Shown here: in pieces, positions 47,167 through 50,536 of the stretch | Layout: each line of letters starts with the position of its first letter | How positions within the stretch are numbered: position 1 is the first letter of the stretch | NCBI GenBank assembly: GCA_947503245.1 | Contig: CANNCV010000001.1 | Span: forward strand, 1,735,501 to 1,799,500 | Direction: 5' to 3' | Length of the DNA stretch: 64,000 bases | Origin: an uncultured Sphingomonadaceae bacterium | GTDB taxonomy: Bacteria > Pseudomonadota > Alphaproteobacteria > Sphingomonadales > Sphingomonadaceae | Translations under genes and position numbers: made by a program | Notes under the pieces: model-generated | The model's database searches: none | Told to the model about the DNA's origin: nothing | The model's input: only the letters and a program-made list of their open reading frames with translations

Positions 47167-47526
47167 ATGGATAAATTTCGTGAAACCGGCCTGAATTTTG
47201 ACCCTAAATTTGACAGTAATGGCTTATTGGCTGCTGTTGTCACGGATGCTGACTCTGGTGATGTTCTGATGCTCGCTTATATGAATGATGAAGCGATAAG
47301 AATGACTTTGGAGACAGGAAAGGCGCATTTTTTTTCCCGCTCGCGCCAGAAATTATGGCTTAAGGGTGAGACTTCTGGGAATTTTCTCAATGTTCAGGAT
47401 ATGCGGATTGATTGTGATCAAGATGCTTTGTGGGTGATTGCAAAGCCAGTCGGGCCAACATGCCATACTGGCGCAAATTCCTGTTTCTATAGGCAAGTAA
47501 CCGCCACTGGCTTGCAACGTTTATGA
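47167..47526 (+). CDS. hisI: Phosphoribosyl-AMP cyclohydrolase
   Basis: 119-aa monofunctional HisI for the third step of histidine synthesis; no HisE domain is fused. The zinc ligands Cys83, Cys99 and Cys106 are seen in IDCDQDALW and [12 protein letters not shown], along with [18 protein letters not shown]. The start at 47167 is chosen because it matches family N-termini; the upstream open frame overlaps purF and lacks similarity. It is away from other his genes and overlaps the next lipoprotein gene. Confidence 0.94.
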
Positions 47527-48068
47527 TAAGAGCGGGCTCTATTATATTGAAGGTATTTGCCTGCATTTCACTGGCCGGCTGTGATGGCGCATCGCTCGCG
47601 CCAGCAAGTGATGCTGCTTCGAATAGTGAATTAGAGCGCGCGGCAATTGATGCAGGGATTATTGTAGACCCGGCTAATCTTGATCTGGCAGGTCTTTATG
47701 AAGCGGGCAGCGAGCTGAATAATGATCGGTTTTGCGCGGTCCGTGACGAAGATAATTATAAGGTCGGCCTTATGGTCTATTATGGCAGCGACCAAATGTG
47801 CGCTGGGCAGGGACAGGCAGTGCTGGATGGGGAAAGTGTTTTGATCACCATAGCAGCGCAAGATGATGATGAAGAGACTTGCGAAATCACAGCAATATTT
47901 GACGGTGAACAGATTGCTTTCCCGGGCAGTATTTCCAACAACTGCGCGCGGCTTTGTTCACAAAGAGCATCGATGGCAGGCGTCTCTATTCCTTTGGTTG
48001 AGAGTGGATCAAAATCTGCTGCTCGTGCAAAAGATGCCGAGGCAAACCGAATGTGCTCGTCAGAATAG
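47523..48068 (+). CDS. Small lipoprotein of unknown function coupled to hisI
   Basis: 181-aa predicted lipoprotein with a clear lipobox LAGC (Cys20). The mature part is acidic and contains seven cysteines ([40 protein letters not shown]), suggesting disulfides in the periplasm. ATGA overlap with hisI. Family not recognised; similar acidic lipoproteins occur in sphingomonads. Confidence 0.75.
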
Positions 48069-48084
48069 TCGCTGCAAAATCAAC

Positions 48085-48113
48085 TTGACGTTTACGTTAA
48101 GGTAATGCATAAC
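48085..48113 (+). promoter_or_regulatory. Promoter and MerR-type operator of the acyl-CoA dehydrogenase operon
   Basis: TTGACG (48085-48090) and CATAAC (48108-48113) form a -35/-10 pair with a 17-bp spacer. The imperfect 16-bp palindrome TTGACGTTTACGTTAA (48085-48100, core ACGT-N2-ACGT, 12 of 16 symmetric) overlaps it and resembles operators of LiuR-type MerR regulators. Transcription would start near 48120, exactly at an in-frame ATG of the MerR gene. Confidence 0.55.
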
Positions 48114-48119
48114 AAGTTT

Positions 48120-48545
48120 ATGCCAAATTCGGATCATGCAACGCTCGAAACACCTGATGTCCATAATCGGGAGCATTATTCAATCTCCGATCTTTCTGAT
48201 GAGTTCGGGGTTACGGCGCGCGCACTTCGCTTTTATGAAGATGAAGGCCTGATTTTCCCGCAACGCAATGGTATGACCAGAGTTTATGGGAAGCGTGATC
48301 GTGCCCGGCTTGCATGGATAATGCGGGCGAAAAATGTCGGCTTTAGTCTTGCTGAAATTCGCGAGATGATTGACCTGTATGACCTGGGTGATGATCGGGC
48401 AGAGCAGCGCAGAGTCACCATTGCCAAATGCGAAGAACGTATCGCGCTTTTGGATAAGCAAAAAAAAGACATTGAAAGTTCAATCAACGAGCTACGCTCA
48501 TTTGTGGATATGGTGAAACAAGTAGAGCTAGAGACAAAAACGTAA
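48120..48545 (+). CDS. MerR-family transcriptional regulator
   Basis: About 141 aa. The helix-turn-helix and wing are [45 protein letters not shown] split over residues 20-65, followed by a long dimerisation coiled coil ([21 protein letters not shown]...). It has no metal-binding cysteine loop, unlike MerR/CueR. Sequence and neighbour (acyl-CoA dehydrogenase) suggest a LiuR-like regulator of acyl-CoA or branched-chain amino-acid catabolism. The ATG at 48120 is preferred because the likely transcription start coincides with it; ATG at 48105 (5 residues longer) lies between -35 and -10. Confidence 0.85.
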
Positions 48546-48622
48546 AATAACATTTGCGGTTCGATCAATTAAAGACAATCCTATTTCGGTAACAACCGAC
48601 CTGACAGCAGAAGGAAGTTCAT

Positions 48623-50425
48623 ATGCCACAATATTCAGCGCCAGTGCGCGATTCACAATTCATTCTCAATGAGGTTTTGGGCCTTGAGAAATTTTCTAAT
48701 CTCCCCGGGTTCGAAAATGCCAGTTCCGATATGGTTGAAGCGGTTTTGACCGAGGGAGGAAAATTTGTTGAGCAGGTCTTGTTCCCCATCAACCAAAGCG
48801 GGGACCAGCAAGGCTGCACCCGTCATGATGATGGCAGCGTTACTACGCCTGATGGTTTTAAAGACGCCTATGACCAATTTTGCGAAGGTGGCTGGGGCAC
48901 GTTGACAGCTCCGGAAGAATTTGGCGGGCAGGAATTGCCGCATGTCGTGGGTTTTGCTTTTGAAGAATTTATTACATCGTCCAACATGGCATTTGGCATG
49001 TATCCTGGCCTAACAGGCGGTGCCGTTGCTGCGATTTTGGCGAAAGGCAGCCAAGAGCAGAAAGAAAAATATGCGCCCAATATGATCTCTGGCAAATGGG
49101 GCGGCACGATGAACCTGACCGAGCCGCATTGCGGCACGGATTTGGGCCTTATCCGCACCAAGGCAGAGCCTCAATTGGATGGCAGCCATAAGATTAGCGG
49201 CACGAAAATCTTTATCTCCTCTGGTGAGCATGATTTGACCGAAAACATCATTCACTTGGTGCTGGCAAAAACACCCGACGCGCCGGATAGTGTGAAGGGT
49301 ATATCCTTGTTCATAGTACCCAAATTCATGGTCAATGAAGACGGCTCTTTGGGTGAGCGTAATGCTGTGTCCTGTGGTTCTATTGAACATAAAATGGGCA
49401 TTCACGGCAATTCAACCTGCGTCATGAATTATGACGGCGCAACCGGCTATATGGTGGGTGAAGAAAATAAAGGCCTTGCTGCAATGTTCATCATGATGAA
49501 CGCAGCGCGTCTGGGCGTTGGTCTGCAAGGGCTGGGTGTTGGTGAAGTGGCCTATCAAAACGCTGTGCAATATGCTGCCGACCGTCGTCAGGGGCGCGCA
49601 TTGGACGGCGCGAAAGACGCTGATGAAAAAGCCGATACCTTATTTGTTCACCCCGATGTGCGCCGCATGCTGATGGAGGCTAAGTCGATTAATGAAGGTT
49701 TGCGGGCGCTGATTTTGTGGGGCGCGTTGCAGGTTGATCTGACGCACAAGGCGCAGACCGATGAAGACCGTGAAATGGCGGATGATTTGATCAGCCTTTT
49801 GACACCTGTGATCAAGGGCTATGGCACCGATAAGGGTTATGAGATCGCCACCAATATGCAGCAAGTCTATGGCGGGCACGGCTATATTGCTGAATGGGGC
49901 ATGGAACAATATGTGCGCGATGCACGTATTGCGATGATCTATGAAGGCACAAATGGCGTGCAAGCCATGGATTTGGTTGGCCGTAAGCTGGCGCAAAATG
50001 GTGGACGTGCTGTGCAAGCGCTGTTCAAAATCGTTGATGAAGAATGCGCCGAAGCGAAATCAGATGATGCGCTGGCCGATTTTGCCACCCGTCTTGAAAA
50101 AGCCAATGGTGAATTGAAGGCAGCGACCATGTGGTTCATGCAAAATGGGATGCAAAACCCCAACCATGTTGGTGCCGGTGCACACAGCTATATGCATATC
50201 ATGGGCATTGTTTCACTTGGCCTGATGTGGTTGCGCATGAGCAAGGCCGCGCGTCAAGGCTTGGCTGACGGCACAGGCAATGCGAAATTTTATGAGACAA
50301 AATTGGCAACAGCGCGCTATTTTGCCGAGCGTATTATGCCTGATGCTGGCGCATTGCGCCGCAAGATTGAGGCAGGCGGTGATGCCATCATGGCGCTGGA
50401 CCCAGAAATGTTCCAAGCCGCTTAA
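48623..50425 (+). CDS. Acyl-CoA dehydrogenase with C-terminal extension
   Basis: 600-aa FAD enzyme of the long (DmdC/AidB-like, about 600-residue) acyl-CoA dehydrogenase type. It has the N-terminal all-alpha domain, the middle beta domain ([32 protein letters not shown]), the C-terminal helical domain with catalytic Glu in [19 protein letters not shown], and an extra C-terminal domain. Annotated relatives are 3-methylmercaptopropionyl-CoA dehydrogenases, but substrate specificity is not clear from sequence. AGAAGGAAG precedes the start. It probably shares the MerR transcript (77-bp gap with no second operator) and ends at a strong terminator. Confidence 0.92.
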
Positions 50426-50442
50426 GCATAAGTGACCGAAAC

Positions 50443-50480
50443 AAAAAAGGCGCGAAGGATATATCCCTCGCGCCTTTTTT
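50443..50480. terminator. Strong bidirectional intrinsic terminator
   Basis: AAAAAAGGCGCGA at 50443-50455 pairs perfectly with TCGCGCCTTTTTT at 50468-50480, and the inner AGGAT/ATCCC part extends the stem. A-run and T-run flank the hairpin, so it can stop transcription of the dehydrogenase and of the convergent gene at 50537-51661. Confidence 0.93.
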
Positions 50481-50536
50481 GTTGGTGACGTTTTTTATGT
50501 CTAAGTTGAAGAGCTACTGAGAATCTAACCAATCAC

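Follow-up and report, generated by a model that had tools for sequence, protein, structure and literature searches.

Does the messenger RNA of a catabolic regulator begin directly on the regulator's own start codon? The question is raised by a locus in the window, the whole 64,000-nt stretch of DNA from an uncultured Sphingomonadaceae bacterium that was analysed. Here a -35/-10 pair stands so close to a MerR-family regulator gene that the predicted transcription start falls on an in-frame ATG. The features on which the answer depends are as follows.

47523-48068, + strand: 181-aa open reading frame (ORF) from the ORF list, with a lipoprotein-like N-terminus (judged by eye)
48085-48090, + strand: -35 hexamer TTGACG, read from the sequence
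48085-48107, + strand: predicted MerR/LiuR-type operator that takes in the -35 hexamer and all of the spacer (31.8 bits, motif from 66 other genera)
48091-48107, + strand: spacer of 17 nt, read from the sequence
48105-48107, + strand: ATG within the operator, rejected as start codon by comparison with relatives
48108-48113, + strand: weak -10 element CATAAC, its position fixed by relatives
48120-48122, + strand: ATG, start codon and predicted transcription start, placed by its distance to the -35 hexamer in relatives
48120-48545, + strand: MerR-family regulator, 141 aa from 48120 (Pfam MerR_1, MerR-DNA-bind and MerR above cut-offs)
48609-48617, + strand: Shine-Dalgarno-like AGAAGGAAG of the dehydrogenase gene, from the sequence (predicted pairing -6.3 kcal/mol)
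48623-50425, + strand: acyl-CoA dehydrogenase, 600 aa, with an Acyl-CoA_dh_C domain (Pfam)
50440-50483, + strand: likely intrinsic terminator and operon end (hairpin of -28.7 kcal/mol, z -7.25, then a T run)

The gene order on the + strand is hisI, the 181-aa ORF, the MerR regulator and the 600-aa acyl-CoA dehydrogenase. The winged-helix DNA-binding domain of the MerR family was found in the regulator through Pfam; no NCBIfam equivalog model reached its cut-off for this protein. Given the strong terminator after the dehydrogenase gene, the transcript probably carries both regulator and dehydrogenase. A simple terminator scan did not detect the hairpin at 50440-50483. This hairpin is preceded by an A run and followed by a T run and may perhaps serve as a terminator for both strands. 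The pairing of the regulator with a downstream acyl-CoA dehydrogenase is conserved among relatives. Six loci were fetched for this check and five were read by ORF list (L190 was left out); the pair is present in all five genomes read, one from the same genus and four from other genera. A dehydrogenase start was found downstream in 53 of 54 loci, the exception being L030, where the search met no ATG nearby.

Direct reading of the letters bears out the -35/-10 pair of the preliminary description and its aim at an in-frame ATG at 48120: CATAAC is followed after 6 nt by this ATG, which shares its frame with the MerR ORF listed as beginning at ATG 48105. By itself, the promoter at 48085-48113 is not strong. 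An E. coli-type promoter scan of 47500-48700 returned 0 promoters (shuffles gave a mean of 1.7), and at -12 the window carries C, a position occupied by T in 86% of the 128 relatives that were aligned. Because the E. coli-type scan finds nothing here, the case for a leaderless promoter rests on the relatives. Their -10 element amounts to little more than TA; this TA and the -35 element resemble the Caulobacter RpoD consensus as quoted in PMC8144410. The only Shine-Dalgarno-like stretch upstream of the regulator is AAGG at 48099-48102, which ends 2 nt short of ATG 48105 and 17 nt short of ATG 48120. Upstream of ATG 48120 the 16S tail is predicted to pair at -2.9 kcal/mol, and upstream of ATG 48105 at -0.5 kcal/mol.

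The choice between the two ATGs was also decided by relatives, in favour of 48120 as had been proposed. An in-frame ATG at the offset equivalent to 48105 occurs in only 3 of 143 family loci; the equivalent ATG is still in frame in L002, is not in frame in L003 and is followed directly by a stop codon in L004 (ATG-TAG). Comparison with relatives places ATG 48105 in the poorly kept right arm of the operator. L003 has an additional in-frame ATG 12 nt upstream of its chosen start. A start at 48120 corrects the likely length of the regulator to 141 aa rather than 146.

The preliminary description had placed a LiuR-like palindrome over the -35 element. The overlap holds, but not the extent: the palindrome CTTGACGTTTACGTTAAG spans 48084-48101, with 14 of 18 positions self-complementary (counted by eye), and the operator is wider, reaching 48107 and filling both the -35 hexamer and the spacer. 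With a motif built from 66 other genera and without its own genus, the operator at 48085 scores 31.8 bits. The best unrelated site in the 64-kb window scores 11.3 bits with the same motif, and in 60 simulated 64-kb sequences (first-order Markov) the top site averages 9.2 bits and never exceeds 16.7. The operator is thus far above chance, and it lies over the regulator's own predicted promoter. Its motif, which we take to be LiuR-like (a likeness, not a proof), is conserved among orthologs; many relatives carry the full form TTGACGTTTACGTAAACGTCAA followed by the -10 element, and the window preserves the left arm and centre well but the right arm poorly. Because of the 6-nt periodicity of the motif, the motif aligner places the operators of L009, L132, L140, L147 and L148 6 nt off. 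Given these shifts, the hexamer itself was used to count start distances.

The gene was matched in 162 of 199 family genomes. Removal of 6 repeats from the 160 loci with a hit gave 143 loci of the family itself and 11 from other families of the order; the 143 are distinct upstream regions and represent part of what exists. Of the 143, 130 have an in-frame start 34-38 nt downstream of the -35 hexamer (35 nt in 66, 36 in 47, 34 in 7, 37 in 7 and 38 in 3), and 128 have one 33-38 nt after the operator start, with ATG as the start in 124 of these. When each genus is represented by a single genome, the hexamer test is passed by 62 of 68, and an ATG stands 33-38 nt from the operator start in 61 of 68, against a codon-shuffled expectation of 7.0 (sd 2.4, maximum 15 in 500 trials). 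The -35/-10/start geometry that had been described for one locus is therefore fixed across the family. It recurs in 71 named loci and is missed in 9 among the best 80 of 581 confirmed loci; 64 of the 72 named loci that were absent from the first set carry it, within the same best 80. By title these 80 are sphingomonads, apart from two broader labels; Blastomonas natatoria DSM 3183 (L228) and Sphingobium boeckii DSM 25079 (L231) are two that share the layout. Ahead of the conserved domain, by contrast, the regulator has anything from 4 to 37 codons, and a fixed distance to the promoter combined with a variable N-terminus indicates that the start follows the promoter and not the protein.

Thirteen of the 143 loci miss the hexamer test. 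L054, L110, L113, L123 and L138 fail only the hexamer filter and have ATG 35 nt after a TTG hexamer. Eight family loci do not fit (L016, L082, L102, L121, L122, L124, L135 and L160); L016 was counted as a miss, with a possible GTG 37 nt after another TTGACT seen by eye. In L082 the regulator start is 62 nt from the operator start. Where a leaderless start would be expected, 37 nt from the operator start, L082 has a two-codon frame, ATG-AAC-TAA.

The 35-nt class has T at -12 in 59 of 66 loci and A at -11 in 62 of 66; in the 36-nt class the spacing between TA and operator is unchanged (T in 43 of 47, A in 41 of 47), and a one-base leader is hence possible there. C or T precedes the ATG at 118 of 130 regulator starts compared with 25 of 53 dehydrogenase starts (P = 7e-10), or at 54 of 62 regulator starts when counted by genus (P = 6e-6 against the dehydrogenase starts). 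Related species are not independent samples, and all P values given here are guides.

Also upheld was the claim that no Shine-Dalgarno sequence precedes ATG 48120, and in the family such pairing is not enriched. A Shine-Dalgarno 4-mer precedes 39 of 128 family regulator starts (36% in shuffled controls), and pairing at -6 kcal/mol or better is found at 13 of 128 (19% in shuffled controls); pairing is at or below chance. Median pairing is -5.5 kcal/mol for dehydrogenase starts (n = 53, from 43 family and 10 other loci) compared with -3.3 kcal/mol for regulator starts (n = 41, all family loci; P = 4e-7). Six family members have starts 57-70 nt after the operator start and predicted leaders of about 22-35 nt, and these pair at -4.1 to -8.1 kcal/mol (P = 0.001; two of the six are near-identical). 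Since such late-start members pair better, a Shine-Dalgarno sequence is mostly present where a leader exists.

Outside the family the layout is rare. Of 21 loci from other families of the order, one (L182) has an ATG in frame at 33-38 nt, and four more have only GTG or TTG there. For the class, the 28 matches with loci among 34 listed outside the family were examined, and 21 of these loci have an operator above 15 bits; 3 of these 21 have the layout (L204, L215 and L223). L217 has the layout and its operator scored low. Many loci outside the family keep the operator and TA, which argues that promoter and operator are older. As far as these loci indicate, leaderlessness is mainly a trait of this one family.

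The own genome holds further candidate sites. A full 22-bp site, TTGACGTTAACGTGAACGTCAA, lies upstream of etfB-etfA (L061:1501-1522; G000:C1:181206-181227) and probably belongs to the same regulon. A partial site lies upstream of a second acyl-CoA dehydrogenase gene with the Shine-Dalgarno-like AAGAGGAAG (L072:1501-1516; G000:C2:235168-235183). The starts of etfB and of this second dehydrogenase gene are well beyond 35 nt from the site. Electron-transfer flavoprotein accepts electrons from acyl-CoA dehydrogenases, so the candidate set makes sense as a regulon. Motif searches of the own genome gave no excess of sites, with 8 and 7 matches on the two strands at one mismatch (control, 14 and 17) and 5 and 5 for a looser exact pattern (control, 6 and 9). 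Sites were therefore named only if a near-full motif was followed by a fitting gene. Matches in or beside unrelated genes (L068 and L070) were taken as chance, and the other one-mismatch hits (L064-L067, L071 and L073), like L184-L186, lie outside the examined set.

Upstream of the regulator, 41 of 43 loci have hisI in the same orientation. In 22 of the 43 (for example L006, L014 and L015) the hisI stop codon is the TGA within the -35 hexamer TTGACG, so that the end of hisI, a promoter element and the operator share the same bases. The window instead has the 181-aa ORF inserted, which ends 16 nt before the -35 hexamer on the same strand and has neither a Pfam nor an NCBIfam match. Ten further loci among the 43 examined carry a relative of it (25-47% identity) at this place, between hisI and the regulator gene. 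Here, as in other loci, hisI ends 500 nt or more from the -35 hexamer. Across the 43 loci the regulator start distance is equal whether hisI ends in the -35 hexamer or at least 500 nt away.

Taken together, we consider it highly probable that a LiuR-like MerR repressor is made from its own leaderless mRNA and cotranscribed with an acyl-CoA dehydrogenase. We infer repression, the inducer, cotranscription and the exact 5' end in the following form. The MerR gene would be the first of a two-gene catabolic operon, and RNA polymerase would start on the A of ATG 48120 or no more than 1-2 nt from it. The regulator would then be translated from a leaderless mRNA through its 5'-terminal AUG, and the dehydrogenase through its own Shine-Dalgarno sequence. 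In the absence of inducer the regulator would sit on 48085-48107, covering the -35 hexamer and spacer, and block polymerase; the inducer, presumably an acyl-CoA, would release it. By analogy with AcuR, the leaderless start probably has a low yield and keeps the regulator scarce relative to the enzyme. A leaderless fusion of the AcuR regulator yielded about 7.5% as much as the enzyme fusion (PMC3017554), although leaderless and leadered mRNAs are translated with similar efficiency in Caulobacter (PMC4117421), which speaks against a simple yield argument.

Three other readings have to be weighed against this one. The regulator could be translated, from 48105 or 48120, on a longer leadered mRNA that comes from a promoter upstream of 48085 or from read-through of hisI and the 181-aa ORF. 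The proximity of that ORF, the regular presence of hisI on the same strand and the frame of ATG 48105 here and in L002 are all in its favour, and about half of the Zymomonas leaderless units also have a leadered form (PMC7566282). However, neither ATG has a Shine-Dalgarno sequence at the usual distance, an in-frame ATG equivalent to 48105 is nearly absent from the family (3 of 143), and the fixed distance between start and promoter would be left without a reason; we regard a leadered mRNA as very unlikely. Genome compaction could have brought the start near the promoter, with a short real leader of about 3-10 nt and leaderlessness unselected. Such an origin would suit the very tight stretch in the 22 of 43 loci where hisI ends within the -35 hexamer, and the spread of start distances over 34-38 nt. 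It is weakened by the equal start distance with near and far hisI, by the pyrimidine that precedes the ATG in the 34-, 35- and 36-nt classes alike and by the other families, where the operator is retained but the distance mostly is not (1 of 21 in the order, 3 of 21 in the class), and we give it a similarly slim chance.

Finally, the regulator could activate its promoter as classical MerR proteins do. It has MerR DNA-binding domains, and among proteins of solved structure those closest to it in sequence are CueR activators. The spacer is nevertheless 17 nt, compared with 19-20 bp in metal-responsive MerR systems (PMC1526738), the site covers the -35 hexamer, and LiuR is described as a MerR-family repressor (PMC3223726). 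Activation is thus improbable, and a leaderless, self-repressed operon is the reading we retain.

A wider proposal is that promoter and start codon form one inherited unit in one bacterial family, in which the promoter dictates the protein start and leaves the N-terminal tail at liberty to vary in length (4 to 37 codons), and that the leaderless start was selected as a throttle that keeps a self-repressor scarce compared with its enzyme and couples production of the repressor to 70S ribosome state. We offer it tentatively, as a reading somewhat less likely than not. Outgroups that share the operator but have different leaders, together with the few family members that carry a leader and a Shine-Dalgarno sequence, would make the value of leaderlessness directly testable. 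One gene has the predicted leaderless layout in 62 of 68 genera sampled, beside natural leadered counterparts, which makes leaderless translation of a self-repressor testable by simple swaps. The distance to a conserved operator can also call leaderless starts from sequence alone.

Leaderless mRNAs have been mapped in Caulobacter (375; PMC4117421), Sinorhizobium (171; PMC3616915) and Zymomonas (119; PMC7566282), and hence leaderless starts are common enough in the class to be expected. These maps each cover a single species, whereas here one gene is followed over a family. Literature searches linking LiuR with leaderless mRNAs, and on leaderless genes in Sphingomonas, found no paper, and in the literature searched we found no earlier description of a family-wide lock of the start codon to the operator such as the alignments suggest. 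LiuR is likewise a MerR-family repressor of acyl-CoA-producing catabolism (of branched-chain amino acids) in proteobacteria, and neither its motif nor a leaderless mRNA is among the features described in the excerpts of PMC3223726 and PMC5343134. LiuR controls branched-chain amino acid or related acyl-CoA catabolism genes; here the candidate sites precede etfBA and acyl-CoA dehydrogenases, which need not be liu genes. CvkR of Anabaena is also a MerR-type repressor from a leaderless mRNA, and its annotated start was corrected through homologs and a mapped 5' end (PMC9938897). It differs in that it controls a CRISPR-associated transposon in a cyanobacterium through a different operator, and the excerpted account does not list a fixed operator-start distance over a family (PMC9938897). 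Closest in plan is AcuR, which has a regulator-first catabolic operon in an alphaproteobacterium, an operator over the promoter, self-repression and enzyme genes with Shine-Dalgarno sequences, and similar layouts were predicted in other bacteria (PMC3017554). The AcuR mRNA starts exactly at the regulator AUG as measured by RACE, whereas here the 5' end is predicted, and AcuR is an acrylate-responsive TetR-family protein with another operator sequence (PMC3017554). The present locus has the regulator first, the operator over the promoter and a Shine-Dalgarno sequence on the enzyme gene; given its MerR rather than TetR domains, the regulator is not an AcuR and shares only the same plan. AcuR and CvkR are precedents for a repressor made from a leaderless mRNA.
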